Source: Ryuthela nishihirai (taxonomy: Eukaryota > Arthropoda > Arachnida > Araneae > Heptathelidae). Taken from it: a stretch of 64,000 nt of DNA. This document shows, one piece after another, positions 7,152-45,353 of this stretch (its first letter is position 1; each line of letters opens with the position of its first letter). Position numbers and translations under genes: made by a program. The stretch is taken from positions 1 to 64,000 of the forward strand of contig JAWZYU010000762.1 of assembly GCA_038380435.1 (NCBI GenBank), read 5' to 3'. The notes below the pieces were generated by a model that searched no databases, was not told the DNA's origin, and saw only the letters and a list, made by a program, of their open reading frames with translations.

Positions 7152-7367
7152 CTTTATTTATTTATTTACTAACAATGTATTCGAACCCGACAACCAACGT
7201 AGAATAACCTAGACCAATATTTTAGGAGTAACAGCGCATACGAAAAAAAACTGCCAACTGCACGCGGTGTTTCCATGTTCTCACCCTCCGAAGTACTGAC
7301 CGCGCCCAAAGCTTAACCTCGGGCATCAGACGAGAACCAGTGTGTTCAACTTGCTATGGCCGTTGAC
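7152..7367 (-). repeat. 5S rRNA-derived cassette (copy 1)
   Basis: A full-length but decayed 5S rRNA reads on the minus strand from 7367 to 7253, with several substitutions and a small deletion in the central domain. A run of T follows, then a conserved 100-base tail ending in TAGTAAATAAATAAA-like sequence. Head and tail occur together at 33621, 41018 and 45236 as well, so they move as one unit. Confidence 0.8.
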
Positions 7368-11610: not shown

Positions 11611-11907
11611 CAAATTTCGTTGATTTCGATTCCAGGCGTCGAAAATGCTGCGAATGACATTAGGATTCCTTGTAGAGTTGTATATTAATAAATATGAAAA
11701 AATTTTCTAAAGCGTAGCCTTCTTTTAAAAAAATATCATTCTTGAAGTTTGAGAAACGATGCTGTATTGAAGTCATTGACTGATGTGAGAACTTTCCACC
11801 AGTTTTAGTGAGTTTTTTCAGTGTTTTTCTTCGTTTCTCTAAGTGGTTTCGGTTTGACGTGAACTTGTTTACAAGTTGGTGCCAGCGGCCATTGCTACGG
11901 GGCCAAC

Positions 11908-13237
11908 ATGGCTACCCGTCAACAGCTGGAAACCGAGCGGCGGTTGCAGCGTAAACTCACCTGCTGCTTCAAACACGAGTCCTTGGACTATAAAACGATA
12001 GCCAAGGACATTATGAAAAAAGATGGGAAAGGGGCACTTGAAACTGTGCAGTTCGTCGCTCCTGGAGTGGCATATATAACCTTCGTCAAACAAGAAGTTG
12101 TGATGAGTTATGTCACTAAGTCCCCGTATGTATTGGAAGGAGTTACGACTTCGGTTAATCGCCTTGACAACGATGAGACGATTGTATATATTAAGCGCTT
12201 ACCGATTGAAATGGACTCGGAAGTCATTTCGAGCCATTTCAGTCAATATGGCAAAATAAGTTCCAATGTCCGTGAGAGATATAAAGACGAAGAAATGTCG
12301 CATCTCTATACGGGAACAAGAGTGATCAAAATAGCAATGACCAAGCCGATCCCTAATTTCTTCAAGATCGGACGCTTCAACGGCATGGTCTCATACTCTG
12401 GATTGCAAAAAGTGTGCAAGAAATTCAACCAGAGTGGTCATGTCGCGAGCGATTGTGAAGTAGAGATCTGCAGTAATTGCAAAGGCGTAGGACACGTCTA
12501 CGATAAATGCGTTGAGCCTTGCGGGAACTGCCGCGACGTAGCGCACAAACGCTACGAGTGCACGCGGCGTACTTTCGCCAATGCGGCAGCGCTCGCGTCA
12601 ATGTTGAACCTACCGAGGAAATCAAGGATAAGACGGAGGAAGCTCCAATAAGCTTGAGAATACTAGAGAGGAAGTTAAAACCTCGGAAGCTAGTAGTAAG
12701 GGCGATAACCCCTTGAATAGCACCACAGAGGTTATCAAGAAAGACGAAGAAAATGCGAAAACAAGCCCCTCCCAGAGTCCTCAAATAGAGAAGGACACAG
12801 ATGCAACAATTTTTCCTGAAACCCCACGTGCAGTGGAAGAAAATCAGGAAGTTGAGGAAATACAAAAAGAAGAAGTACAAAATAACGAGCCCAATACAGG
12901 GGAAAAAAATTCTTGTGAAATGGTCCAATCGACCTCAAACATAGAAGAAGGAATGTCAACTGACATTGAAGAAACCGACAGCTCCAAGCAAAATTTAAAA
13001 AGAAAGTTGGCAAAAAAAATCTGAAAGCCAATGAAAGAAGAAAAAAAAAAAATTCTTACAACCAGCAAGCAAAGGAAAAACAAAAAGACAGAGAAATTAA
13101 AACCCAAGAAGAAATTAAGTTTTGCAGACTTCTTGACCGACGAAGCAAAAAGTTCGGTGCAGCATGGCACGCCTGACCTGGCCAATGACCTCTTCCTCAC
13201 CGACATTGATGCTTCGTCGAGTGGTATGGAAGACTGA
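11908..13237 (+). pseudogene. LINE-2 ORF1 (zinc-knuckle RNA-binding protein), frameshifted
   Basis: The first open part (11908-12651, 247 codons) has an RRM-like region at about residues 90-165, then three CCHC knuckles in the order seen in element A ORF1. Knuckle 1 has lost a ligand (C170, F173 instead of Cys, H178, C183). Knuckle 2 (C188, C191, H196, C201) and knuckle 3 (C205, C208, H213, C218) are intact. A frameshift just after the conserved ANAA motif moves the coding sequence to other frames: an acidic stretch to 13024 and a Lys-rich C-terminus to 13237. In an intact element this protein would bind the element RNA. Long minus-strand frames here are shadows. Confidence 0.8.
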
Positions 13238-14749
13238 ACCCTCCCTCAGGCCCTTTGTTGGCCTTTATTTTCCCCTCTTTCTGTATTATGCCACTCATGG
13301 GAGTGGCCTTTTGGACTTTAAGTACTCCAAGTTGTTAAATTATAAGTACTATGTTTTTAAGTTTTTCTCTAAAGAACTTTCAAGATTTGCCAGGCTTTTT
13401 TTAAAAAAACAGTAATTATAACAGGTATTATATTCATTTTATTTACCTTATTATCTATTTACATTTCTTTTTCCTTATTTATCTAACAAATTTTCTATAT
13501 ATTCATTTTTTCAATTACTCACCTGTGAGTGAGTATCATTCCCTAATTGAGAATAGTAATAAAACATACCACAATTACTTATCCAGAACCTTTATGGGAC
13601 ATAATTAATTATGTTTATCTAAAATTACTTGAAAAGTATTTTAATCTTATGATTTTAAGAGTTATTTATTATTTTACTCATTGTATTGTTTCCTTTTGCA
13701 GCAACTCTAAAGTGGCTGCTGACACAGGGGCCCTTTACAAGGGTTCTCTGTTAGTCCTCACTTGTTATATCACCTTTGGGTGTCAATTCCTTTGCTGCAA
13801 CTTAAATGTTTGTATAATTTGGTATATCTTTATGATTCTTTCTCCTATATTTATCCCACTCACACATCCCCACATCACACCTGTCATTGCCACAACAACA
13901 GTACATGACAGTCTCTCACATTGATTTCTTCTCCAACATTTATTTATACATAATTACTCCTCTCCTACTTTACTACATCTGGATCTTTCCGAGCAATCTG
14001 GTTGATTTTTATATATTTGTTTTTATTATAACAACTATCTTACACTTTGTTTTGACTTGCATTATTCACTCATATGTTCAGAAAACAATAATGTGTTAAA
14101 ATTATCTCTCTGGCAAACTAACAAAAAATAACTCCAAACATGGATATCATTCTTAAGTTCTACCTAGCAAAAATAAAGAACAGTACTGTAAAACTTTAAA
14201 CTTTCATCCATCTATAGCCATTACTGCTACAAAGTCTCATCTACTTGTGTTGCACATTTCCAGACATTATTCATAATATGAAGAAACTGAATCATAACTA
14301 CTTCTTCAACTCTATCCTCACTAATTATACCATCATCTTTACTCGAAAAAAAATTAATCCACATGAACTTGTCAATTTATTAGGTGCCATTAAATTACAT
14401 TCATGTGTCCAACAAGTCTTGAAGAAAATATGTGACAAAAATATTTATTATCTTGGCACTCTTAAATTTATTATTTTACTAATTGATATTTTTAATTTGA
14501 CTATCTTGCTTTTTTTAAAATGTTGTGTGACAGGTCAGTTCAGGCCACCAAGTAGCCAAATTTTTTTTCTTTTTCTTATTTTATTTCTTTTTTTTCTCCT
14601 ACTTTTTGGTGGACCCTTACTGGCCTGCCACTTCTGGTCTACTGTATATGGAGTCTCCTTTTTTTATTATTGGATCTCTCTGGTTTCTTTTCCTCCCCTT
14701 CTTTTTGTTTGCATTTTTTTCCTTTTTCTTTTATGGCCAATTACTGCAA
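13238..14749 (+). other. AT-rich spacer between LINE-2 ORF1 and ORF2
   Basis: About 1.5 kb with no credible coding sequence, against 77 bp in element A. The 199-codon frame at 14245-14844 is a run of F, L and I codons from T-rich DNA. It may be an unrecognised insertion or an inter-ORF region peculiar to this family. Confidence 0.55.
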
Positions 14750-17700
14750 ATATTCAGATAGACACTAAGGTGTCAGTCCCTCAATGTGAGAGGCTTTACA
14801 CTGGAGAAACAGAGTGTCATCATTGGTCACTTTATGCAGACTGATTGTGACATTCTGTTTCTCCAAGAAACTTATTTCCCCAACACTAGAAGAATACTAC
14901 ATTTTAGACATTTGTTTCCACAGTTATCCTACTTCTCAAATGGTACCTCTATGAGCAGAGGAGTAGGCATAATTATTAACCACAACAACAGAAACATACA
15001 GCTACTCAGATACAACACAGACACTGAGGGCAGAATATTATCAGTCGACATTCAATTTCGCAACTATGTTATTAAACTCATCACTGTATATTTACCCAAA
15101 CATACCACATCACATTACAATTTTTATCAAGACTTAAGACAACACATACAAAGCAACTATGATGGACTTATAATTGGAGAGGACTTTAACAGTATTGTTG
15201 CCCCACACCTGGACAGAGTTCCTGCTACAAATTACACGCCTACCTCACAGGCACCTCATTTTTCAAAATTTGTACATGACATGGACCTCATTGACATTTG
15301 GAGGCATATGAACCCATACAGTGCAGGCCATACAAGATTTGACAAAACACATAAAACAGGTTCCAGGCTGGATAAAATATTAGTCAGCAGAAACATTGTC
15401 AAGACATACTACAGAAGCTACACTACTGATATCAACTCACATACGTGTGAGGTCAGTGATCACCTCCTTGTGCATGCACACTTTGATTTACACCCGAGAA
15501 CACAGGAAGATGAATACAACACTCCTAGAAGACAAGGAAATACAGGAAAAAATTGCTGACTGCATTAATGAGGATGTCAACAAGACCACCAAGTTTGATC
15601 AGAACTGGTGGTAAAATTTACAAACTAAAATTAGAAGACTCTTCAGAACAGAAGGTATCTTTAAAGCACAACACCTAAAAAATGAAATTAATGAAACCAA
15701 AGCACTTTTAAAAGCAGCCACAAATGGTACACACTTCCTTAAAAAACAGAGATTAGACACCACATATCACGAACAACAGATACACAAACTTAAACACAAT
15801 CTTCAGCAATTATACAAACAACAGGGACATATTATCATAGAGAGAAATCATGATGTCCAAATTGCTGAAGAAGAAAATTGCAACAACTTACTTACCAGAT
15901 TAAAACATAAAAATAGACAAAACACAAACCTAACTGAATTAGAAGTAAATGGATTAAGAACACATGACACACAAATTATCTTAAAACACATACATGAACA
16001 ATATACCAAACAATATCGACATAGACAGACAGACAGACACCAATAAACTTTATGAAACAGAACAATTTGCCAACAAAATTTCTCCACACACAAAAGACAA
16101 GTTAGAAAGTGATATTACAATACAAGAAGTTAAACAAGCTATTTTCAGTTTTAAATTAAAGAAGAGCCCCAGAATAGATGGTCTTCCTATAGAATTCTAT
16201 AGAACATTCTGGAATATCTTAGAAATACCTTATACAGAATTTTTACACACTATAATAACACTGAAACAAATGACACAAGACATGTAAACAGGTCAAATAG
16301 CACTGCTATGCAAAAAACCTGAACAAGCACACTTATTAGACAATTGGAGACCCATAACACTTCTTTAAACAGACTACAAAATACTCAGTAAAATTATCAC
16401 CAACAGACTAACACAGGCAATGCCAGAAATAATTTCAATTTATCAATCCTGTGCAGTCCCCAAGAGACACATTCATAACAATAACAGACTCCTCACAGAC
16501 ATAATAGAATATATCAATCACAAAAACATAAGAGCTGCCATTATATCTTTAGATCAGAAGAAGGCCTTGAACTCGAGACTCGCTATCACAGGAAGCAATA
16601 TACACTGCACTAGAAATATATGGTATTGGACCCCGATTTATTAACATTATACATACACTTTATTCGGACATACACTACACTGTTCATCTCAATGGACATT
16701 TCTCTAACAAAATAGCAGGGAACAGAGGGGTGAGGCAAGGATGCCCTCTGTCACCATTGCTTTTTGTTGTAGTTAATGACTTTTTCATTAGACATATACA
16801 AAATGATACGCAGATTTCTGGAATCCCCATACCAGGAACCAGAAACAGATTAAAAGTTTCAGCCTACGCTGATGACCTGGTTCTTTTTACAACAAATGAG
16901 TTTTCCATAGATAGAGTTTTTAAAATTTATGATCTTTTCTCTAAAACTACAGGCCTGTCCCTTAACACCAGTAAAACAGCTTCCCTATGTTGGGGCACAT
17001 GGGACAGGTCATTCCTGACAAAGATTGGTTGTACAGATGACCCTATCAAAATTTTACGAATACAATATAATAGATTTGGATTTTGTAAACAAACCTATAC
17101 AAATTTATTAAATAATATAGAAAACACAATTACAAATTGGAAGGATTACGAAATTTCTACGTATAACAGAGCTAAACTCATAAAATCCAGCATAATTCCC
17201 AAAATCACCTACATAGCCACTGTAAATCCTCCTGACAAGACACACATAAACAAATGAAACAAACTTATCTATGACTTTATTTGGAATGGCAAGCCAGAGT
17301 TGATTAAACGTGAAACATCACAAAATCCAATCAACCTGGGTGGACTTGCCATTCCAATTATTACCACAATGTCAAAGATTATTTATTTAGAACATATACA
17401 AAGAATATTAAGCACACCTACTGTCCCCTCTTTATTTCTCTTGAATTACTTTGCCTTCTTTCACACCAAACACATATGCACACATAACAGTTATAATGGG
17501 CCCAAAAACACAGAACACAACACAAATTACAAACTTCTACCTTCCATAGTTACACTAGTACACAAAAAAGGTCCAATCCCCAACCCTATTAATAAAACAC
17601 AGCTATACACAACTATCCAGACTTTCAACCCTACCAACTTTCAACAGTTATACCCAAATATCAATTGGCCTAAGGCCTGGACCAACATTGCCAGCACAGA

Positions 17701-18007
17701 CATTGAGAAAACTATGAGGAATTTTAATTGGAATGTAGCTCATAATATTGTTTACACAAATTCGAGAAGAAGACATTGTGGCTTCATTGCTTCTCATAAT
17801 TGCTTTAGATGCCCTACCAGAGAAAGTATTGATCATCTAGTTTACCATTGCTGGTATGCTATCAAGATCTGGACAAAAGTAAGCCAATGGCTCCAGATAG
17901 CAAGACCTTTGTTAAGAGCAGTTAGATTCCATGATTTACAACAGTACCCCAACAAGAAACATTACATCATCAATTTGGTAATTAGCATTGTTAAATACCA
18001 AATTTAG
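14750..18007 (+). pseudogene. LINE-2 ORF2 (APE endonuclease / reverse transcriptase), disabled
   Basis: Endonuclease at 14757-15500: N motif SLNVRG just upstream of the first Met, LQET, YLP, GEDFN where element A has GGDMN, and VSDH. Reverse transcriptase at 16100-17250: DGLPIEFYR, RQGCPLSPLLF and AYADDLVLF are intact. The C-terminal CCHC (CFRC...DH....C, about 17800-17850) matches the L1-group pattern. Lesions include a frameshift after 15540 and in-frame stops near 15612, 16286 and 17256 (TGA where the family has Trp). The retained motifs and mostly single-base lesions suggest moderate age. Confidence 0.85.
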
Positions 18008-18789: not shown

Positions 18790-19411
18790 CCATTGAAATT
18801 TTCAAACAAATGAAAAATTTCTAATTACCGATGGAATATTTTTGGATAGCCCGGTTTGTTTCGCTAAGAACCGGGACTGACAAATGGAGATAGAGTTTGG
18901 AAAGTAGTGAGTGAATTTGTAATGTAAAACAATTCGAAGTTGATAAAAGGATTATTCTAATAGAAAAGGTTTTTAAGGGGATAATAGGCTTTCTATGGTG
19001 AAGGGAATTAGAGGTATAAAGCATTAGTATTGTATATTTTTTTCTTTGTTGGCTATGGCTAGGCTTCGTGATTTCTATTTCTTTTTGTGAATGCTAGGTG
19101 TTAGGGTACGTTTATACGATGTGTGTGTGTGTGGGGGGGGGGTTATGTTGTCAGGGGCTGGAATTGTTGGGCGAGTGCGTTTCTCAGATGGCCATGTTAA
19201 TACTTGCTGGGTGTGTGGGGTGGGGATGAATAAGGCAAAGGGAGATTCAGGCGAAGTGAGGATGGGCGGGTGGAGGTGGTTGCGACTGCGTTTCCCGGCA
19301 TCCGACGGACTTTTCAAAAAAATACATCAGACGGACTTCCTGTTTTGCTTTACATCTGATACGATTACTAAAGAACTTTAAATGTTGCATGTACTAATTT
19401 TGGATTAAATA
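18790..19411. other. U2 3' flank, no gene
   Basis: Unique-looking sequence with a (GT)n then G10 run at 19122-19141. The 96-codon frame at 19091-19381 and its antisense partner have simple composition and no recognisable domain. Immediately 3' of the U2 end (minus strand) the sequence 'atttaaagttcttta' at 19366-19384 is loosely like a snRNA 3' box; weak. Confidence 0.4.
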
Positions 19412-19561
19412 TGTGGGCCGCTACCGGAAGTAGTGCAATACCGGTCCAACCCGTGACAGAGGTTGAGCAAGCTCAAAGCACTCCGTCGAACTACAAAAAT
19501 AAGATTAATATCTTGATTTCATATAGAAATCGTATCAGATATTAAGCTGATAAGAACAGAT
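19412..19561 (-). ncRNA. U2: U2 snRNA gene, 3' part (bases 39 to about 188)
   Basis: Reading minus from 19561, the sequence follows U2 from ATCTGTTCTTATCAGC onward. Stem IIa and IIb pair well (GATTTC with GAAATC), the Sm site ATTTTTG is at 19500-19494, and stems III and IV follow, ending in GGTAGCGGCCCACA. Length (38 missing + 150 = 188) fits normal U2. The stem-IV loop reads TTGCACTAC where most animal U2 has TTGCAGTAC, in the U2B'' recognition loop, so this half may be drifting. It is separated from its promoter and first 43 bases by two retroelements. Confidence 0.9.
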
Positions 19562-19722
19562 TAAATTTATTAATTCGATAATGCTTACAGAAAGAATTGT
19601 CAAAATATATATAGATCGGCCCTAAGGCCCAGGTCGTCTTCTTAAACACAGCACAAACACTCTTCGTCCCCTTAGGGCACATGTAAACATTATATCTTCT
19701 GCTCAGTGAGCCACATAAAAAC

Positions 19723-19764
19723 ACGTCACTAATAACTCACTCGTTTATAAATACACTATCACCA

Positions 19765-19819
<55 letters not shown>

Positions 19820-19856
19820 GTCACTAATAACTCACTCGTTTATAAATACACTATCA

Positions 19857-19889
<33 letters not shown>
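19723..19889. repeat. 40-bp direct repeat with two long A tracts
   Basis: The 40 bases at 19723-19762 recur at 19818-19857, each followed on the plus strand by a long poly(A) (about 52 and 32 bases; T tracts on the element's own strand). This could be slippage or an assembly artefact at a homopolymer. It lies where the coding sequence of element B ends, so it may hide a deletion. Confidence 0.8.
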
Positions 19890-19890
<1 letters not shown>

Positions 19891-21128
19891 ATATCCAAGA
19901 TGGGAGAAATCATAAAAAATAATTCTCCATAGAACGTCATCAACTCCATTTGGGTATTCAGTTGATGGCGTAATGGGATCCACCATTTCGGCACAATGCC
20001 TAAAACAATCCAGAGGAGGTATACAACACACCAACAAGGGATCCAAGACTGAAGTTCCTCATAAGATAATAACTTCTTCGGGAATAATATCACAAATCCA
20101 TGAGTATCAAAATTCCCAGTAATAAACGTGATGGTGCCCCAGCCAGGCTCACAAGGAGCCCCGACCCCACAAGCACTGTTAACCATCATACTCGTATCCA
20201 TTATCAAAAGGGAACAGTCTCCCTTAGAGCTCAAGGAATCGACTAAAACCAAGCTCCTCGCTCCCATCACAGGTCGATGATTCATCCTAAAAAAGAAATG
20301 GTCACCAATAGAAGAATCAGCAGGTACAGTACGATTAGAATCAGCAAGGTCACAGTCATTGGAATCATGATCCACTGTCATTTCTAGGGTCCCAAAATCC
20401 AGGAGATCAGTAGCCCTCGCTGAAACCGGGCTCTCAAAATCAAGTAAGTCCAAGTCATTTAGCATATCATCCAATAAGGCCACAGACGGGGCAAACATGC
20501 AATCCAGATCAAGTGCTCCGAAGTCGCAAGCCAGATCGGAAAAACCCGCCGTATCGCATATTGGCGAAACCGCCTCTATGTCACAAGTGTCACAGCCCTC
20601 AGGCTCAACATTGTAAGAAGGGTAAACCATAAAATCCCTGTATATAGCCTCAATCGCTTTACAGTTGTCAGATTTTACAGGAGAAATATTAGAGTTCGTA
20701 GTAATGGTTAAATCCCAACTCTTTTCATCCTCTACCATTGACTCTAGACTCAACAGCAACGAATCTAGAGAGGGAGAAAGATCACATGTAGTCGTCAAGT
20801 GAAGAATCGGATCAGGGTCAATTCTACATTTGTGAATATTCATATCCTTCATGCTCAATGTTTCAGCATCACAAAATCTACATTTAAAACAGAACTTCTT
20901 GACCGGGTGAAATAAAATGAAATGATCAAGTAGCCGGCCATAGCTAGGAAAAGAGGTCGACGAATAAGAGCCGTCCTCTTCCATACACAAGTGACAACAT
21001 GAAGGCTCGTAGGGCACTATAATAGTTAGTTCCTCCATCCTAAAAAGTAGCACACATTCAATAATCTTCCTCCAGTCCCACAATACAGAAAATCCCACAA
21101 TCCCCAGACCAACAGTCAATCTCACCAA
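19854..21128 (-). CDS. Element B zinc-finger ORF
   Basis: Open for 424 codons. A start at Met31 (21038) is more natural than 21128, because the fingers follow it directly. Finger 1 is C45, C48, H69, H74 (C2H2 with a long loop). A second, C2HC-like finger is C83, C86, H99, C101. The rest is acidic and Ser/Asp-rich, without a recognised domain. The frame runs into the T tract at 19889-19858 and ends in a phenylalanine run, so the natural C-terminus is lost. C2H2 fingers at the N-terminus are typical of R2-like and Utopia-type proteins, where they bind target DNA; a role in finding U2 is inferred. I do not recognise it by sequence alone. Confidence 0.6.
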
Positions 21129-21532
21129 AAACGTCCCATCATGTAAAGAGTCCCAAGGTCCAGCACTCCTCGTCCGTTACATCCGACGACAGTCAGCTCC
21201 CTTTCCAACGGCAAGGATCCCTCGTCACCACACAGCAGGCTTCCAAACCGGCAAGCAAGTGGCACGCTTCTCAATTCATCCAGCAAGCAACCCGGTACAC
21301 AGGACCACACAACAGCAGCAGGCAGGCAGGTGGCTCCCTTCACTATTCTTCAGACGGAAAAAAAAGGCAAAAAGTCCACAGCAGAGAATGGCCAGGGCAA
21401 CTCCAGAAAGACTCCACAACGGTCGGTATGCAGCTCCCTCCAAGTCAATGATCGCCTCCCGGCCTTTGGCATCAGCTTCCAGCAGCAAAAAACGACGTCT
21501 AAAATCTGTATAGGGGTGAAAAAAGCAATAAA
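21129..21532 (-). other. Element B 5' leader
   Basis: About 400 bases between the U2 junction and the long ORF. Two short overlapping frames (21276-21488 and 21122-21343) have no recognisable content. Confidence 0.5.
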
Positions 21533-21553
21533 ATTAAGCTGATAAGAACAGAT
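21533..21553 (-). ncRNA. U2: 21-base internal piece of U2 (bases 39-59)
   Basis: Exact match to U2 bases 39-59 on the minus strand. It is at once the 3' junction of element A and the 5' junction of element B, and duplicates the start of the U2 3' part at 19561. It separates the two elements and shows both used this U2 site. Confidence 0.9.
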
Positions 21554-21821
21554 GTTTTTTGTTACCGGTACTGGAAGAAACTATAGAAGTTACTCACAGC
21601 ACTATACCGACACAAAAAGTTTACTCTCTGACCAGGAAGCCATGAACAGGGGTATAGCTACCACAAGTTCGACAGGCTTCTCGGTCGCAGCGATGCCCGC
21701 TACGCAATCCACCGCGCCACGGACACCGCTGCTTACTCCTGAAAGGAAACACAACATTAATACATACAAAAACACTTTAGGGAACGGAAAAAGAAACCCT
21801 ACAACAAGAGAGAGAAGAAAG
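21554..21821 (-). other. Element A 3' UTR
   Basis: 268 bases between the ORF2 stop and U2 base 39. T-rich just after the stop, then moderately GC-rich; the last bases before the junction are GGTAACAAAAAAC on the minus strand. Confidence 0.75.
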
Positions 21822-24800
21822 TTAAACTTTAAAAAGAAGGCCATCGCCAAGAAAATAGCAGAGAAACGGAGGCCGACACCACAGTTTGGTGAACTCCGTC
21901 TTACCTCTTCGGAAGTGTTCGACCCTCAGAAAGTTACGAACACTACCGGATACGCGGGCCTTGACATCCAAAAGGCCCGTCTTCGTCTTCTGGAACAAGG
22001 CCTTGTTCCTTGTCTTCCAAAGATGGTAGCGGACCTCGCTGGACACCAACAGGAACTGATTCCGGGCAGCCACTCGGACCGGCATGGGTGTCGAGTAGAG
22101 CGCCGTGGTCACTCCCGGTGTCGCGATGCCGAAGACGTCGCCGACATGTCGCCACATGGCCGCAGCAAGGAAGCAGCTGTACATCGCATGGGTGATGGTC
22201 TCCACCTCCCCGCAGTGAGGGCACCTGTCGTTTCGTATGTGACCGTAGCGATACAGGCGGTCCCGGACAGGGAGGACCTCGTTGGCGACTCGCCAATTGA
22301 AGTCCTGCCGGCTCTGCATCAGATGACGATCGGTCACATTACGCCAGGCCTCGTTCCAATCCAACTGCGGTTGCCTCCTCTGAACGCGAGGCTCAAAGGG
22401 GGGCAGGAGGCCGCGGTACAGGCTCCTTGTGGTACTCTGGAATAAATCAAAGTCAATAACATTATGTTTAATGCACTCTACGTTCCGAAGAACGTCACTA
22501 TAGAAACGGGTGGGTTTCTCAGACCTGGGGCCATTGAATACAAGATCCGGCGACAGGAACCTGAGAGAAAGCCCTAACCAGTATAACATAAAATTGGACA
22601 TGGAAGTACCGGAATCTAAAATCCTGACAACGGAAGAGATTGCCGCCGCGGCAAAATGGTGTTGGAGGTCCGGAATTCCCCATCCACCTGAGTCGATGGC
22701 CTGGGTCACTCCTTCTCTCTTCACCAACTCCTGTCCACCTCCCCAAAAGAAGGTGAACAGCAGTCTGGTCCACTGACGGACCACATGCCGCGGGACTGGC
22801 AGAACTTGTGCAGCATACGTGAGGCATGGCACGAGGACCTGTCGGACGACGTGGGCGCGAGCTCGGTAAGACAGGTCGCGCCCGGCCCACGTGGAAGCTA
22901 TGGCCTGAACTTTCAGAGTGCTAGTCCTCCAGTTCATCCACAGACTACGACCAAAGTAAACGCCGAGAACCTTTACCGGGTCACATGTCCATCGCAGGTC
23001 GTGGGGGGTTTCGGGGCAGCCCCTACTCCGCCCAAGCCACGAGGCGACGGTCTTCTCCTGGTTAAGCAGGGCGCCAGTGGCCCTGCAATAACTACCGACT
23101 TCCCTCAAGGCCCAGGTGAGGGAGTGTTGGTCGGCTAGGAGAAGTGTGACATCATCGGCATACATCACGCACTTCAGATCAACGGAGGAATTACCAGGGA
23201 CAGTGATGCCCCTGATGCGTTTGTTGCTCCGGATCTTCTGGCCGAGACACTCAATGACAAGAACAAACAAGAGGGGCGACAGGGGACATCCCTGCCGGAC
23301 CCCCCGGGCCACCTTGACCTCTTTGGAGAGAAACCCGTTGATTAGAACGGAACTGCAATCCTCAGTGTAGAACAACCGAACCCAACGGATGAAGTTGGGA
23401 CCGAAGCCGAAGGCACCCAAGCACGCAAACAGGAAGCCGTGATCCACTCGATCGAAAGCTTTGCTCTGATCGAGATTCACAAGACAGGCTGGAAGGTCCT
23501 TGGATTCGACGTAATCCAGTACGTCTCTAACCATGTGGAGAGAACTGGAGATGGAACGACCAGGGACCGCGCAGGTCTGGTCGGGACTCACCAGCTGGGA
23601 GAGTACACCCCCCAGTCGGTTACAAAAAACTTTGGTAAGGATCTTGTAATCGACGTTGAGGAGGGTGATGGGTCTCCAATAGGAGAGGTCGTCCCGCTTC
23701 GCATCATCCTTGCAAAGAAGCGTTACGACCCCCCCACGCTGGGAAGTGGACAGCAAACCTTCATCGAAGCAACGTTGGTAAACCTCAACCAGGAGAGGGC
23801 CCAGAGTGGGCCAAAACCTGCGGTAAAATTCGACCGGTAGTCCATCGTTACCGGGACTCTTACCGTTGCGGAGTTGTGAGAGAGCTTTGGTGCACTCCTG
23901 TAAATTAACAGGCTGCTCCAAAGTCGCGCTCACCTCGGGCTGGAGTCGAGGCAACAACTCGAAGAAAGAGTCCCATTCGCTGCGTTCAACGGTGCCTTCG
24001 GCAAACAAATCCTGATAAAAGTCGGCGGCATGGGCCAGCATGTCTTCAGTGCGACTAAGCCGCTGACCATCCCGGCCGACTAAGGAAACGAAACCTCTAT
24101 CATGACCATTGTCTCTCTCTCGCTTGAAGAAGTGGCGAGAGAATTTCTCCTCGGCTTCCAGGCGGTAGGCGCGTGACCTGACGCGGTATCCCTCCCGCTG
24201 CTTATCGAGTAAGCTCTGGATCTGGTTCCGTAGATTAACCATTTCCAACTGGATGGCCGGCACAGAGGAGTTTCCACGAGCCAAGATATTTAACGTCGAG
24301 TACAGCCGTGAAAGCTGCGCTCTCCGTTCCCTGGCCCGCTTCTTCCCCCACTGCTGGAAGAACTGCTGGAAAAGCACTTTGCACTCCTCCCACCACTCAG
24401 CATCGTGAGATGGACTCTGGGTGGCGGAGGTGAGAAGCTCGAGGAAATTCCTAGAAATTTCCTCATCCTCCAGGAGGGAGGTGTTAAGCTTCCATAAACC
24501 TGGACCTCTAGGCGAGCGAATAAAATCCCGTAAGGTTGTGAGCACCAGCTTGTGGTCACTGACGTGAACAGAAGCGGAGCCCACTGGGTATGCGTCACAA
24601 TTGACAACATGGGGGGCCAGGCCTCGTGGGACGTAGATCTGGTCTAGCCTACAGGACACTCCTCTTCCGGACCAAGTGACGCAAGCGTCGGTCGGATGGA
24701 GGGACCTGTAGGCATCAACCAAATCGAAGTCCCGGCAGAGCTCCTGCAGTTGCAGGGACCCATAAGTGCCGTTGGAGGACAGACCACCCGTCTTGTCAAT

Positions 24801-25271
24801 ACTGGGATCCATGATGCAATTCATGTCTCCCCCAAGGAAGGTATCGGAACTGGAAAAAAGGAACTCATCGAGCGACCTGAAAAAAGAAGTGCGATCGTGT
24901 GTGCCGTTAGGGGCATACACATTCACGAAGCGCAGTGGGTGGCCGTGGAGAGAGACGTCTACAGAAATGATTCTGCCATCCTGGTCTCTACGACTGCATA
25001 TGACAGAACCCTGAAAATTGGAACTAAAAATCACACCCACACCCCGGGCACGGTGCGTCCCGAAGCTCCAGCAGGAGCGACAACCAAACAGTCTCTCCAG
25101 CCGTTTGATTTCGCTCAACTGCGAAAAGTGGGTTTCCTGAAGGAAAAGAACATCAATCTGGAAGTGACGCATCAAAGAAAAAACAATGTCCTGCTTCTCT
25201 GAAAGGAGGAATCCCTGAACATTCAGAGTCGCGAGGGCTAACTTGCAAAGTGCCATTGTCGACCCAAGCAA
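21822..25271 (-). CDS. Element A ORF2: APE endonuclease / reverse transcriptase
   Basis: 1149 residues, complete. Endonuclease (1-250): N17 in TLNVQG, E46 in LQETH, Y119, GGDMN at 147-151, and S238-D239-H240. It nicks the target. Reverse transcriptase (about 460-720): GKSPGNDGLPVEFYR, motif A LDQSKAFD with D601, RQGCPLSPLLF at 659-669, and YADD at 704-707; it copies element RNA from the nick. The C-terminal CCHC knuckle (C1017, C1020, H1028, C1033; CX2CX7HX4C) is the L1-group nucleic-acid-binding motif. All catalytic residues are present. Met6 is an alternative start. Opposite-strand frames are shadows. Confidence 0.92.
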   Translation of the reverse strand: MLGSTMALCKLALATLNVQGFLLSEKQDIVFSLMRHFQIDVLFLQETHFSQLSEIKRLERLFGCRSCWSFGTHRARGVGVIFSSNFQGSVICSRRDQDGRIISVDVSLHGHPLRFVNVYAPNGTHDRTSFFRSLDEFLFSSSDTFLGGDMNCIMDPSIDKTGGLSSNGTYGSLQLQELCRDFDLVDAYRSLHPTDACVTWSGRGVSCRLDQIYVPRGLAPHVVNCDAYPVGSASVHVSDHKLVLTTLRDFIRSPRGPGLWKLNTSLLEDEEISRNFLELLTSATQSPSHDAEWWEECKVLFQQFFQQWGKKRARERRAQLSRLYSTLNILARGNSSVPAIQLEMVNLRNQIQSLLDKQREGYRVRSRAYRLEAEEKFSRHFFKRERDNGHDRGFVSLVGRDGQRLSRTEDMLAHAADFYQDLFAEGTVERSEWDSFFELLPRLQPEVSATLEQPVNLQECTKALSQLRNGKSPGNDGLPVEFYRRFWPTLGPLLVEVYQRCFDEGLLSTSQRGGVVTLLCKDDAKRDDLSYWRPITLLNVDYKILTKVFCNRLGGVLSQLVSPDQTCAVPGRSISSSLHMVRDVLDYVESKDLPACLVNLDQSKAFDRVDHGFLFACLGAFGFGPNFIRWVRLFYTEDCSSVLINGFLSKEVKVARGVRQGCPLSPLLFVLVIECLGQKIRSNKRIRGITVPGNSSVDLKCVMYADDVTLLLADQHSLTWALREVGSYCRATGALLNQEKTVASWLGRSRGCPETPHDLRWTCDPVKVLGVYFGRSLWMNWRTSTLKVQAIASTWAGRDLSYRARAHVVRQVLVPCLTYAAQVLPVPRHVVRQWTRLLFTFFWGGGQELVKREGVTQAIDSGGWGIPDLQHHFAAAAISSVVRILDSGTSMSNFMLYWLGLSLRFLSPDLVFNGPRSEKPTRFYSDVLRNVECIKHNVIDFDLFQSTTRSLYRGLLPPFEPRVQRRQPQLDWNEAWRNVTDRHLMQSRQDFNWRVANEVLPVRDRLYRYGHIRNDRCPHCGEVETITHAMYSCFLAAAMWRHVGDVFGIATPGVTTALYSTPMPVRVAARNQFLLVSSEVRYHLWKTRNKALFQKTKTGLLDVKARVSGSVRNFLRVEHFRRGKTEFTKLWCRPPFLCYFLGDGLLFKV

Positions 25272-25348
25272 AGGGAAAAAGGAGAACGGAGGAAAGAACC
25301 TCGGAAAACTACGACGAAGAGAAAACCACCAAAAGAACTACTAACTGC

Positions 25349-26665
25349 TTACTTACCCTTCTTCTGCTTCTTCTTCCTACTGCGGCTCCTGCTGCCCTTA
25401 CTGGAAGAAGGGCTGGCGTCGTCGCGTCTTCTGACGAACAGGGATGCCGCCTGCGATACCCCACGTGGAATGTGTGGGGCCTGGGTCTCCATGACCTCTT
25501 CCTCGGCGTCGCTGACCTCCGACGTTTCCGAGAGGGGGACGTCCGCGGAGCAGGTGCTGTCCTCCATCTGTGGCTCCAACTCGTCGCCGCTCTCTACACT
25601 GGGGATAAGAATGCCCCCATCCGACCCTGGGTCCGACTCGACAGACGACTCGCCGCAAGGGGGAGCCGCCTGAGAGGAGGGCCCAGAAGTGGTGGAGGAG
25701 GTGGGTTCGTCCACTGTTCCATCCTCCTGAGGTGTGGACGCAGCTGACTCAGTTGCAGCTACGCTCTTCCCCGAGGCAGTGGAAGCAGCTTTCTTGCCCC
25801 CCTTCTTACCCTTCTTCGCCTTGGGGACTACGGCGGTCCACTCGCCGCTGCCAGACGACACCTCTGGCTCGGCGGGAGTTTCCTCCGCAGCCTCCTTGGC
25901 CTTCTCCAGCGGCGCCTCCTTGGCCGGGTCTTCTACAGCGTCCGTCGCCGACTCTCCTGACGTCTCGGTAGCCTCCGTCGACGGCTCCTTCCCACCAGCA
26001 GCGTTGGCGTAGGAGCGCTTCGGGCAAGCTGACCGGAGGTGTTCCCCTCCGCAGATGCCGCACGGTGAAGTGCACTTCCCGGCGGTGTGGCCCCTCAAAT
26101 GGCAGTTGCCACACACAGCCTGAGTGCATTCAGCCACCAGGTGCTCGGTCGAACCACACCGGCGGCAAGCTCTGGCCATCCCGGAGTAATTCACCATTAA
26201 CCGGAAAGAGCCCGCCTGAATAAAATTTGGCACAGGCTGGCTCATCTCCATTGTTACGCACCGGTTTCCAGTTTCCCAACTGGAAGCAGGGTAGCACTCA
26301 CGAACAACTCGTACAATCTTGCCGTATCTAGACAAACAACTACTCACCACAGTGTCGTCCATTTCATATGGAACGTTCTTCACAACCAAGATCTTCTCCT
26401 TGGAGTCAAGGGCCTTCGTGCCGACCCTCTTCCCTTTGAAGGAGAAACCTAGACCAATCAGCTTCTGATGAATCTCTTTGCTGCGCACAGTCACTATGAA
26501 ACGTCCAGGTCCAAAACTGGAGAGACAGTTGCCACAGTTCTCTCCAAACGCCGTTTCCAGTTCCTTGATGACCTCTCCAGCAGTTGCAGTGTCGTCGCTA
26601 ATTGTGAGCGACACCGATAGATGGCGCCTCAGAACGCCCGTCATCCTGAAAGAAAGATCAGACAC
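25349..26665 (-). CDS. Element A ORF1: zinc-knuckle RNA-binding protein
   Basis: 438 residues. An RRM-like segment (about 90-160, ILVVKNVP...) precedes three CCHC knuckles: C167-C170-H175-C180, C185-C188-H193-C198, and C202-C205-H209-C214 with a shortened loop. Then comes a long Ala/Glu/Ser/Thr-rich, disordered tail ending in SRSRKKKQKKGK, a likely nuclear-localisation or RNA-binding patch. In related elements ORF1 coats the element RNA. It ends 77 bases before ORF2. The knuckle region aligns with LINE-2 ORF1, where knuckle 1 is broken. Start: first Met after a T-rich leader ending CTTTCAGG. Confidence 0.9.
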   Translation of the reverse strand: MSDLSFRMTGVLRRHLSVSLTISDDTATAGEVIKELETAFGENCGNCLSSFGPGRFIVTVRSKEIHQKLIGLGFSFKGKRVGTKALDSKEKILVVKNVPYEMDDTVVSSCLSRYGKIVRVVRECYPASSWETGNRCVTMEMSQPVPNFIQAGSFRLMVNYSGMARACRRCGSTEHLVAECTQAVCGNCHLRGHTAGKCTSPCGICGGEHLRSACPKRSYANAAGGKEPSTEATETSGESATDAVEDPAKEAPLEKAKEAAEETPAEPEVSSGSGEWTAVVPKAKKGKKGGKKAASTASGKSVAATESAASTPQEDGTVDEPTSSTTSGPSSQAAPPCGESSVESDPGSDGGILIPSVESGDELEPQMEDSTCSADVPLSETSEVSDAEEEVMETQAPHIPRGVSQAASLFVRRRDDASPSSSKGSRSRSRKKKQKKGK

Positions 26666-26880
26666 AAAAACACAATAATATTAAAACTACTACAAAGAAA
26701 TACCTGGTGTCAGCACGCAGGAACAGCAACCGGAAGTGAAGCTAAGTGCAGTCTCATGCACTGGCACACCGCCGGTAGCAGGCAACGCTAGATCCGTCCA
26801 ACCAGCGATCGAGCACCTTGATGCGAGCGTCGCCCGTTAAACGAAAAAAGCAAAACTAGACTTAGTGCAGTACCAACTCT

Positions 26881-26916
26881 CAATAAGGGCAGGTCATGCA
26901 CACGGATCCCTTATTG
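26881..26916 (-). other. Hairpin at the 5' end of element A
   Basis: A perfect 9-bp inverted repeat, CAATAAGGG and CCCTTATTG, with an 18-base loop. It lies 6 bases inside the element from the U2 junction, so it would form at or near the 5' end of the element RNA. Confidence 0.8.
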
Positions 26917-26922
26917 AACTCC

Positions 26923-26965
26923 CAGATACTACACTTTGATCTTAGCCAAAAGGCCGAGAAGCGAT
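26923..26965 (-). ncRNA. U2: U2 snRNA gene, 5' part (bases 1-43)
   Basis: Minus strand from 26965: ATCGCTTCTCGGCCTTTTGG and onward is the canonical, invariant U2 5' end, through the branch-point-recognition segment GTAGTA (bases 33-38) to ATCTG at 39-43. Then element A begins. The 5' part has no visible mutation. Alone it lacks the Sm site and stems II-IV and cannot make a snRNP. Confidence 0.95.
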
Positions 26966-27002
26966 AAACAGTATTCTTTTTAAATTATTAATAATTTTCA
27001 TA

Positions 27003-27025
27003 ATCAGAAATTCATACACGGTAAT
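27003..27025 (-). promoter_or_regulatory. Probable proximal sequence element (PSE) of the U2 gene
   Basis: The minus-strand sequence TTACCGTGTATGAATTTCTG lies at -38 to -60 from the U2 start. It resembles the vertebrate-type snRNA PSE (ACCGTGA...TGAAAG), with the expected spacing and no TATA box. It would load SNAPc and Pol II. The match is by eye only; no upstream octamer was found. Confidence 0.5.
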
Positions 27026-27029
27026 TCGC

Positions 27030-27356
27030 GCGTAAGAATCCAAAAGTCCGTAGGCGAAGTCGCGGTAAAGTTGTTAGCGTGTGCGTTAAATCAGTCTGTT
27101 CTCCTGAACGGTTAGTCGACTTTATCCCACACAGAGACCGACATATTTTTTAAGCCTCCATTCCCACCCTCGAGCGAACAACACGGGCCCGGCTGTCCGT
27201 CCGTCCGTCCAATAGCATCACTGATCACCGCGGACCGCACCTCTCGAGCCGACAAGTGGTGCCATCTATGGGTAGAGCGAAGGGACTAAGCGCATATGTA
27301 GATTGGGAGGTTGTAGGCCGTGAGGAGCAATTAGACTTTCCTGCTTCACCATATAT
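27030..27356. other. U2 upstream flank
   Basis: More GC-rich than its surroundings, with a short (CCGT)n run at 27198-27212. No gene or recognisable distal element. Confidence 0.4.
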
Positions 27357-32006: not shown

Positions 32007-32628
32007 CAGTCGCTCAAAAAAGTATTCGAACACCATGGTTGATTACAGAACAGAATTCAGGAAAAAAATCTGGAACGATTTCTTTTTTAATAATTAATGA
32101 TTTGGCAACCTTCCTGTACGTATGCGAAGGTTGTCAGATCAGTAATTTCTAAAAAAATCGTTGCCAGGTATTCTTCCTGAATTCTACAATCAACCACATT
32201 GGGGACGGGGTGGCTCAGTCGGTAGCGCGCCAGGCTCGTAATCTGTAGTTCCTAGGTTCGAGTCCCAGCTGGGTCAGCGTTGAGATTTATCACTGCAAAA
32301 TTTCCCCGTCCTGGCCACGGTCAGTAGGGGACACTGATGGGCTTGAAAAGGCCGCCGTCCGTCGGATGGGACGTTAAGCCGTGGCCCCGTTTGCGGGAGA
32401 GCCCATACCCTGTGCACGTTATAGAACACGCTAGATGGCCTTGACGGGAGGCTACCATCTGTCTCCCAACAGCTGTTCCAGTGGGTCCCCTCACCCAACC
32501 ATCTCTGAGTCTTCGGGGTCCTTGTGGCCTGGCCATTTAGCCCATGGTGTGCAAAAAAAGTGCCGTTCTGAGGTAAAACAATCGAATGCAATCCAATCAA
32601 CCACATTGTTCGGATACTTTTTCGAAGG
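32007..32628 (+). mobile_element. Palindromic Tc1/mariner-like MITE, split by an S1 insertion
   Basis: Starts at TA-CAGTCGCTCAAAAAAG. Its right end (32609-32628) is an imperfect inverse, GTTCGGATACTTTTTCGAAG. The inside, 32037-32195, is a near-perfect hairpin centred at 32116 (GGTTGATT with AATCAACC, GAATTCAGGAA with TTCCTGAATTC, CAACCTTC with GAAGGTTG). Plus-strand S1 lies at 32201-32593. An inverted copy is at 41725-42305. Confidence 0.7.
32201..32593 (+). repeat. S1 SINE, full length, with 15-bp target duplication
   Basis: Complete plus-strand S1 with box A at 32207 and box B at about 32253. It is flanked by CAATCAACCACATTG at 32187-32201 and 32594-32608. It inserted into the MITE before the A-block was duplicated, since the inverted copy carries it at the same place. 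Confidence 0.9.
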
Positions 32629-41724: not shown

Positions 41725-42305
41725 ACAATGTGGTTGATTGGATTGGATTCGATTGTTTTACCTCAGAACGGCACTTTTTTGCACACCATGGGCTAAATGG
41801 CCAGGCCACAAGGACCCCGAAGACTCAGAGATCGTTGGGTGAGGGGACCCACTGGAACAGCTGTTGGGAGACAGATGGTAGCCTCCCGTCAAGGCCATCC
41901 AGCGTGTTCTTTAACGTGCACAGGGTATTGGCTCTCCCGCAAACGGGGCCACGGCTTAACGTCCCATCCGACGGACGGCGGCCTTTTCAAGCCCATCGGT
42001 GTCCCCTACTGACCGTGGGCAGGACGGGGAAATTTTGCGGTGATAAATCTCAACGCTGACCCAGCTGGGACTCGAACCTAGGAACTACAGATTACGAGCC
42101 TGGCGCGCTACCGACTGAGCCACCCCGTCCCCAATGTGCTTGATTGTAGAATTCAGGAAGAATACCTGGCAACGATTTTTTTTAGAAATTACTGATCTGA
42201 CAACCTTCGCATACGTACAGGAAGGTTGCCAAATCATTAATTATTAAAAAAGAAATCGTTCCCAGATTTTTTTCCTGAATTCTGTTCTGTAATCAACCAT
42301 GGTGT
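41725..42305 (-). mobile_element. Palindromic MITE with S1 insertion, inverted copy
   Basis: Same structure as 32007-32628. S1 minus at 41748-42133 is between two copies of the CAATGTGGTTGATTG-type target; the second has one substitution. Hairpin centre near 42217. Confidence 0.7.
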
Positions 42306-45130: not shown

Positions 45131-45353
45131 TTCTCCTTTATTTATTTACTAAAAATGGAATGGAACCCGGCGACCGACGTAGAATGACTTTGGCTAATAT
45201 TCTAGGAGTACAGCGCTTGGGGGAAAAAAAAAAATGTCAACTGCACGCGGTGTTCCCAGGTGGTCACCCTCCCAAGTACTGACCGCGCCCAAAGCTGCTT
45301 AACTTCGGGGATCAGACGAGAACCGGTGCTTTCAGCTTGGTATGGCCGTTGAC
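45131..45353 (-). rRNA. 5S rRNA: Complete 5S rRNA-like unit with conserved tail (copy 4)
   Basis: 118 bases on the minus strand from 45353 to 45236 carry a full 5S: GTCAACGGCCATACC start, internal control region AGTTAAGCAGC, TGGGAGGGTGACC, and a GTTGAC end that pairs with the start. An 11-base T run follows at once, a strong Pol III terminator. Then comes the tail (to 45131) shared with copies 1-3. It may be transcribable. Either a dispersed 5S gene or a 5S-derived SINE. Confidence 0.8.

Follow-up and report, generated by a model that had tools for sequence, protein, structure and literature searches.

Two unlike U2-targeted retroelements stacked in one U2 snRNA gene of the spider Ryuthela nishihirai

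A U2 gene split by two retroelements

The stretch of DNA analysed here (the window) comprises 64,000 bp of contig JAWZYU010000762.1 (C762) from the 3.11-Gb genome assembly of the spider Ryuthela nishihirai. On its minus strand lies a U2 small nuclear RNA (snRNA) gene that is split by two retroelements of different kinds, A and B, each bounded by U2 sequence on both sides. Numbers preceded by L denote loci taken from the same genome, and numbers preceded by T denote families of elements or of element tails. Read in the direction of the gene, the features are as follows.

26923-26965, minus strand: U2 snRNA gene, 5' part, nt 1-42 plus a G that is possibly U2 nt 43
21554-26922, minus strand: element A, 5369 bp, a Keno-like non-long-terminal-repeat (non-LTR) retrotransposon of the apurinic/apyrimidinic endonuclease (APE) type with two intact open reading frames (ORFs), 3' end ...GTAACAAAAAAC(A) followed by TCTG
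25349-26644, minus strand: A ORF1, gag-like with CCHC knuckles, ATG at 26644 (zf-CCHC E = 0.0014, below the Pfam cut-off)
21822-25256, minus strand: A ORF2, 1144 aa, with AP-like endonuclease, reverse transcriptase (RT) and zf-RVT by Pfam
21533-21553, minus strand: U2 nt 39-59 between A and B, at once the 3' flank of A and the upstream copy of the 20-21-bp target duplication of B
19562-21532, minus strand: element B, 1971 bp, putative RT-less relative of Utopia
21506-21532, minus strand: B 5' end, a pyrimidine tract plus ACAG resembling a 3' splice site
19854-21038, minus strand: B ORF, a 394-aa zinc-finger protein whose fingers are followed by an acidic stretch and, at the C-terminus, a hydrophobic PxWWxxxRH-like part
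20826-20999, minus strand: B zinc-finger pair, resembling the N-terminal part of this genome's autonomous Utopia-type elements
19717-19889, minus strand: 95-bp tandem duplication in the B 3' untranslated region (UTR), with T tracts of 53 nt and 32 nt
19562-19601, minus strand: B 3' tail (TCTGTAAGCATT..AATTAATAAATTTA), its outline common to autonomous Utopia-type elements
19408-19561, minus strand: U2 snRNA gene, 3' part, nt 39-192

The U2 family model of Rfam matched 19598-19408 with 121.7 bits and 26965-26763 with 50.5 bits, although by eye only about the first 43 nt of the latter are U2. When joined, the two halves were identical at 192 of 192 positions to the U2 of each of eight intact loci (L001-L008), with a top score common to 33 of the 46 U2 matches scored in the genome. 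The original prediction, made from the window alone, that both halves belong to one U2 gene and that the 3' part is U2 is thereby confirmed. Its boundaries for the U2 pieces were also borne out, except that the 3' part runs on to nt 192 (19408) and that base 43 perhaps belongs to the element. U2 ends at nt 42 and is followed by G or A in the 14 A copies with a located 5' end (13 plus the window), so the U2 identity of base 43 is uncertain and the duplication made by A is 3-5 bp. This U2 presumably has one extra nucleotide, in common with fruit fly U2 and unlike human U2.

Reversed-pattern controls gave no matches in six pattern searches of the genome, which excludes a chance origin. An assembly artefact is an unlikely source of the stack, because the same junctions occur on many contigs, each with different partners.

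Element A is a Keno-like retrotransposon with an RT-less relative

The domains of A ORF2 were clear in Pfam (Exo_endo_phos, E = 2.9e-13; RVT_1, 6.5e-37; zf-RVT, 5.4e-8), and LINE-1 ORF2p was the closest among solved structures. A protein search gave 83 matches, the ten best of which had 30-34% identity and were mostly unnamed. A carries an AP-like endonuclease and an RT in one ORF2, and its 3' flank in U2 begins at the nucleotide given for Keno and Utopia (PMC4640811). By endonuclease type and U2 site, A is probably Keno-like. No ribozyme was detected at the element 5' ends by Rfam at E ≤ 5 within 19300-27300.

Genome searches scored the best candidates only, and all copy numbers are therefore lower bounds; for A, 28 matches were scored out of 421 first-look candidates. 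Full length was seen in 21 of the 28, with 97-100% identity, so the family appears to be young. Another five are truncated at the 5' end by 144 to 733 bases (one of these at a contig edge), one is short by 12 bases and one lacks its 3' end. Twenty of the 28 were sampled for what lies downstream of A, which was an ordinary U2 3' half in 16, another element in three and rearranged U2 in one. In this last case (L089) about 37 bases of the 3' half are joined to U2 from about nt 10 on.

A second Keno-type family, T03, has kept ORF1 (53% identical to A ORF1 over 279 aa) and the ends of A (90% identity over 125 bp and 80% over 182 bp); no ORF2 was present in the single T03 copy read. At the 5' junction of one RT-less Keno copy (L108, 1490-1557), 24 bp of U2 (nt ∼17-40) are duplicated.

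Element B lacks RT and endonuclease but resembles autonomous Utopia-type elements

No frame or domain for an RT or endonuclease was found in the 1971 bp of B, and the RT and restriction-like endonuclease (RLE) that characterize Utopia are thus absent from it. Its zinc-finger frame, which terminates inside a poly-T tract, was open in all 18 B loci having both ends (393-409 aa from the first ATG), whereas none of 2000 base-shuffled versions had a 380-codon frame in the phase of the ORF. Beyond these 18 loci, L057 and L058/L059 are copies broken up by other sequence. B copies among the 44 matches listed numbered 16 over the whole length and two split. The T-tract tandem duplication in the 3' UTR is unusual inside a retroelement.

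B is one of several RT-less families. B2 (1962 bp) is 68-69% identical to B over 1.1 kb, and T09 (L018) and T14 (L027, L034-L038) encode related proteins. All four share the 5' end of pyrimidine tract plus ACAG, as does an element behind A at L079, of which ∼146 bp was seen. This 5' end is followed by a conserved stretch like GGAAGCTGATGCCAAAGGCCGGGAGGCGATC (window 21532-21440; L057, L059, L062, L071, L072, L079). RT-less elements with both ends read are of near-equal length although they come from two clades (B, 1971 bp; B2, 1962 bp; T03, ∼1968 bp). The B protein had no homologue at E ≤ 1 among 5.8 billion proteins (5773 word-sharing candidates) and no Pfam match at E ≤ 0.1, and an AlphaFold model of its first 133 residues, built without an alignment, was unusable (mean predicted local distance difference test score, pLDDT, 32).

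The kinship of B emerged from autonomous U2 elements in the same genome, in which B-like fingers are followed by an RT and an R2-type C-terminus. Two such families were characterized. T04, read from the adjoining loci L069 and L011, has U2 nt 1-59 upstream, and its duplication is thus 20 bp; T10 (L109 and L073) has a 1613-aa frame and U2 nt 1-40 upstream, giving a duplication of 0-1 bp. Both combine N-terminal zinc fingers, RT, and C-terminal CCHC and RLE in one protein at the U2 site, as Utopia does; the fingers, CCHC and RLE were judged by eye on R2 motifs, only RVT_1 being above Pfam cut-offs. Absence of a Myb domain has also been used to define Utopia (PMC13188248). R2 was the closest among solved structures to the autonomous RT, and a search with the T10 protein gave seven distant RTs. 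Autonomous-type 5' UTRs carry GGTAAGCATG or GGTGAGTAT, which resemble a 5' splice site, soon after the 5' end (L056, minus strand from 3440; L090; L069 from 2338).

Autonomous and RT-less elements have a common 3' tail, CTGTAAACATT...TTGAATAAA.AATTTTTAA before TCTG. B has this tail as well as the 20-bp duplication seen in autonomous L069, and its fingers are similar to the autonomous ones (by alignment, without an E-value). Given the fingers and 3' tail in common with the autonomous elements, the most fitting reading of B is a relative of Utopia that has no RT and would be copied in trans. Thus, the prediction of two unlike U2-targeted elements in tandem stands, and B does come from the Utopia side, but it is not a full restriction-endonuclease element.

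One junction, unlike duplications

All element 3' ends read here join U2 at TCTG, and Kojima and Jurka gave the same U2 junction for Keno and Utopia (PMC4640811). At their 5' ends the elements differ, with duplications of 3-5 bp for A, 20 bp for B and L069, and 0-1 bp for T10. The B duplication is TCTGTTCTTATCAGCTTAAT (20 bp), or 21 bp if the preceding A nucleotide is counted. Reptile Utopia elements were described as duplicating 20 bp and arthropod ones as duplicating none (PMC4640811); both modes are present in this one genome. Judged from the junctions, two endonucleases of unrelated fold appear to share one nick in one gene.

Stacked insertions are widespread in the genome

Exact U2 3' halves whose base at -8 is not G were found 300 times, and those continuing through the site into U2 numbered 34. 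The 34 comprise 33 full U2 genes and one site (L017) with a partial 5' half only. This search listed 100 places and most sites are known from the pattern alone; -8 patterns also miss element tails that carry G at this position, such as L057. The state left by a first insertion, recognized as U2 nt 32-59 with a next base that is not A, was seen at 69 places.

Exact copies of U2 nt 40-59 flanked left and right by a base foreign to U2 occurred at 210 places, which are candidate stack junctions. Again 100 were listed, a few with atypical tails (e.g. two on C19), and the 21 that fall in fetched loci (23 matches, of which two repeat places already counted) are all element-element junctions. The arrangement in the window is thus far from singular. 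Allowing up to two mismatches to U2 nt 40-67 gave 469 sites, diverged copies included. The 1.5 kb upstream of the first 30 of these, taken in contig order and so not at random, held 25 Utopia-type tails, three Keno-type tails, the partial U2 5' end of L017 and one unassigned sequence (L024). No match to the U2 pattern was found in viral contigs.

Junctions also cluster in one orientation, with 10 in 43.5 kb on C5 and 11 in 57 kb on C10; elsewhere on C10, a U2 5' half is followed by eight junctions in 48 kb. Spacings are often near 2 or 4-5 kb and the tails differ. One fetched cluster locus on C10 (L056) has an upstream tail, B and then autonomous-type fingers, with the exact 20 bases between each. 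The clusters can be read as chains of separate insertions.

On a larger scale, U2 3' halves lie mostly every ∼118-146 kb along C86, C127, C93, C78, C14 and C3, with some shorter or longer gaps, in a pattern like a giant tandem array.

Order of insertion

The other U2 loci that the original prediction had marked for inspection include all three states, A alone, B alone and A with B. Upstream of B, 17 loci had U2 (four: L040, L047, L051, L052), A-type elements (three: L039, which is the window, L043 and L053), RT-less Keno elements (three), T10 (five) or other tails (two), and L056 adds a further, different neighbour. That A and B are adjacent and in the same orientation might suggest one composite element with an internal 21-nt piece of U2. 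We reject this reading, which has next to no probability, because A alone, B alone, and B behind the tails T03, T10, T18 and T19 all exist.

We propose, with a probability of roughly 80%, that one U2 gene was struck twice by target-primed reverse transcription at a single nick, first by B and then by A. Both machineries would cut the bottom strand at one position, namely before TCTG (nt 40 of this gene). The B RNA would be copied in trans by an autonomous Utopia recognizing the 3' tail of B, and staggered top-strand cleavage would duplicate the 20 bases, such that the upstream copy would again read U2 nt 1-59. This rebuilt segment would be a complete target and the gene would stay open, allowing A to land in it later with its 3-5-bp duplication. 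The order would arise from the upstream copy keeping U2 nt 1-39, which the downstream copy does not. Reverse transcription itself and mobilization of B in trans are steps that we infer from the anatomy of the locus.

Evidence on order comes from loci that share a B copy. Six loci (L040, L041, L042, L043, L044 and L046) carry the same B, differing at 0-1 positions, and share a downstream haplotype that none of the remaining 39 among the 45 entries compared has (L060 and L061 among the 45 repeat L054 and L055). Their upstream neighbours are, in the same sequence, none, T10, T10, A-type, T10 and RT-less Keno. Another B shared by L047, L048 and L049 is preceded by none, RT-less Keno and RT-less Keno. 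Since B and its downstream flanks are identical and the upstream neighbours vary or are absent, comparison of these loci shows that B inserted before its upstream neighbours in these two other lineages. At L041 and L042 (C159, C93), the short 3' piece of T10 before B lies head-to-head against a U2 5' half in inverted orientation, which carries B2.

The opposite order, with A inserted first and B then entering the leftover U2 3' half (A 3' end plus U2 nt 39-192), would yield the same junctions, and the whole B duplication does lie inside that 3' half. It would, however, require B to have inserted repeatedly into units with the same, exclusive downstream haplotype in the two lineages just described, and to have used a target without U2 nt 1-38. 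We consider this order unlikely.

Under the preferred order, new insertions would need U2 nt 1-39, and the upstream-most A copies fit this, since A directly follows U2 nt 1-42 in all 14 copies with a 5' end found. A would then end a chain, as so short a duplication leaves the site unrestored.

Recombination could also produce the same sequence, if A-bearing and B-bearing units of the U2 array crossed over or were converted within U2 nt 40-59, perhaps at a break made by an endonuclease. Exchange is to be expected among U2 genes spaced roughly 120-145 kb apart along contigs, the rearranged U2 behind A at L089 is in keeping with it, and the flanks of the window are compatible with it. Against this, the homology is just 20 bp, and 210 candidate stack junctions with many tails would be hard to produce in this way. 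Moreover, both flanks of the A-with-B locus L043 match B-alone L040: the upstream flank (L101) has no differences from L040 or from B-alone L051, and 2-5 differences from five loci that carry A alone, with A of the same subfamily. We judge recombination to be less likely still than insertion of A first.

For the window gene itself, insertion of B and then A is inferred, and several observations weigh against it. The window B has no identical B-alone partner (the nearest, L054, has five differences and L040 eight), and the window flanks match equally well intact L005, B-alone L052 (whose B differs by 25) and, upstream, A-alone L098. At all loci the flanks differ little (mostly 0-9 per 1.3 kb), several loci seem to have arisen from one another by duplication in the array, and the differences could have been blurred by gene conversion. 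At the third A-with-B locus, L053, the A 5' end was not found in the fetched stretch (L107).

The zinc-finger protein appears to be maintained by selection

In the finger region, the ratio of nonsynonymous to synonymous differences per site (pN/pS) was 0.21-0.27 among B, B2 and T09 (bootstrap upper bounds 0.31-0.43), while in the last part of the protein it was 0.60-0.79. The finger region of T14 gave 0.34 against B (bootstrap 0.19-0.53) and 0.55 against B2 (0.30-0.95), both over 42-43 codons, a weaker signal; B against L057 gave 0.23 with a wide interval (0.09-0.66). In the dN/dS estimates synonymous sites are near saturation, and part of the selection seen could predate the loss of RT.

A tree of the finger region (10 sequences) separated autonomous from RT-less elements with a support of 0.953. 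The C-terminal PxWWxxxRH part is common to B, B2 and T09; no such part was seen in the fetched extent of the two autonomous frames. T14 has a similar part in another frame, so its copies are broken or different. Taken together, the data suggest one old RT-less lineage with a maintained protein.

A bolder reading, which we put forward tentatively and hold somewhat less likely than its negation, is that these elements are an old, self-standing lineage of retroelement parasites. Their sole product would be a zinc-finger protein that has a C-terminus of its own and is kept by selection for helping to steer the Utopia machinery to U2 or for joining its complex, and the 20-bp duplication would serve as a self-renewing landing pad. 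If so, the pad would explain clusters of eight or more mixed elements, and families with a short or no duplication (Keno-like, T10) would end the chain.

Other features of the window

A second, degenerate long interspersed nuclear element (LINE) lies on the plus strand at 11863-18007. Its ORF1 has a part like an RNA recognition motif (RRM) and cysteine motifs, and in its ORF2 the endonuclease, RT and zf-RVT are broken by stops; no U2 12-mer was found near its ends. The window is repeat-rich, and matches resembling 5S RNA and tRNA at 7252-7367, 45235-45353, 32204-32276 and 42057-42129 are possibly heads of short interspersed nuclear elements.

Comparison with known systems

Stacking within one clade has precedent. 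Utopia-1_NVit is 'occasionally inserted in tandem in U2 genes', 20 of 94 N. vitripennis junctions have Utopia 3' of Utopia, and several Utopia families in one U2 array have been published (PMC4640811). The earlier view that such an arrangement was undescribed therefore needs narrowing: tandem Utopia in U2 was known, while the literature listings and passages surveyed contained no stack of a Keno-type on a Utopia-type element, no two duplication modes in one genome and no RT-less kin of Utopia or Keno that retain a protein. Pile-ups that mix clades, and an RT-less lineage with a zinc-finger protein apparently under selection, seem less expected than the stack itself.

Keno, a U2-specific member of the Tx1 clade, and A both have an APE-type endonuclease with RT, a gag-like CCHC ORF1 and a U2 3' flank from the same nucleotide. 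Unlike Keno, A has an RT-less sister family that keeps ORF1 (T03) and is stacked on Utopia-type elements. The autonomous relatives found here resemble Utopia, a U2-specific member of the NeSL clade, in their N-terminal fingers, R2-like RT, R2-type C-terminus and site; in duplication, L069 and B (20 bp) are as reptile Utopia and T10 (0-1 bp) as arthropod Utopia. Unlike Utopia, B has no RT or endonuclease, and the stacks mix families and include Keno-like elements.

RT-less elements that keep a first protein thus occur on both sides, B-type beside Utopia and T03 beside Keno. HAL1, the ORF1-only L1 of mammals, is not known to be site-specific; like T03, it lacks RT and has kept its first protein. 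Short internally deleted elements (SIDEs), which include R2, R2/R1 hybrid and Persaeus types and are thought to be mobilized in trans, are known for R2 (PMC3414825) and CR1 (PMC6740152), and the R2 and R2/R1 types are site-specific (PMC3414825, PMC6740152). R2 SIDEs consist of a 5' ribozyme joined to the 3' end (PMC3414825), whereas B and its relatives have retained a ∼390-410-aa zinc-finger frame that bears signs of purifying selection. A SIDE would keep both ends of its parent and lose the coding region; B has a 3' tail in common with the autonomous elements, a 5' end unlike the autonomous ones seen, and a long frame.

Double insertions of R1 and R2 occur in 28S genes, at separate sites. Two DNA transposon families, Dada-U1A and Dada-U1B, also occur in tandem, by the title of a supplementary figure (PMC3706591). 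In both cases, as here, two target-specific families occupy one RNA gene, but R1 and R2 use separate sites whereas A and B appear to share one nick. The genome would therefore preserve a record of the sequence in which competing machineries exploit a common target. A 20-bp duplication that rebuilds the target points to a way in which a target-specific element could last on a gene of low copy number. Kojima and Jurka found it surprising that several Utopia families persist on about ten intact U2 genes (PMC4640811); with 300 occupied-type against 34 read-through U2 3' halves in this genome, a self-renewing target is a possible answer.

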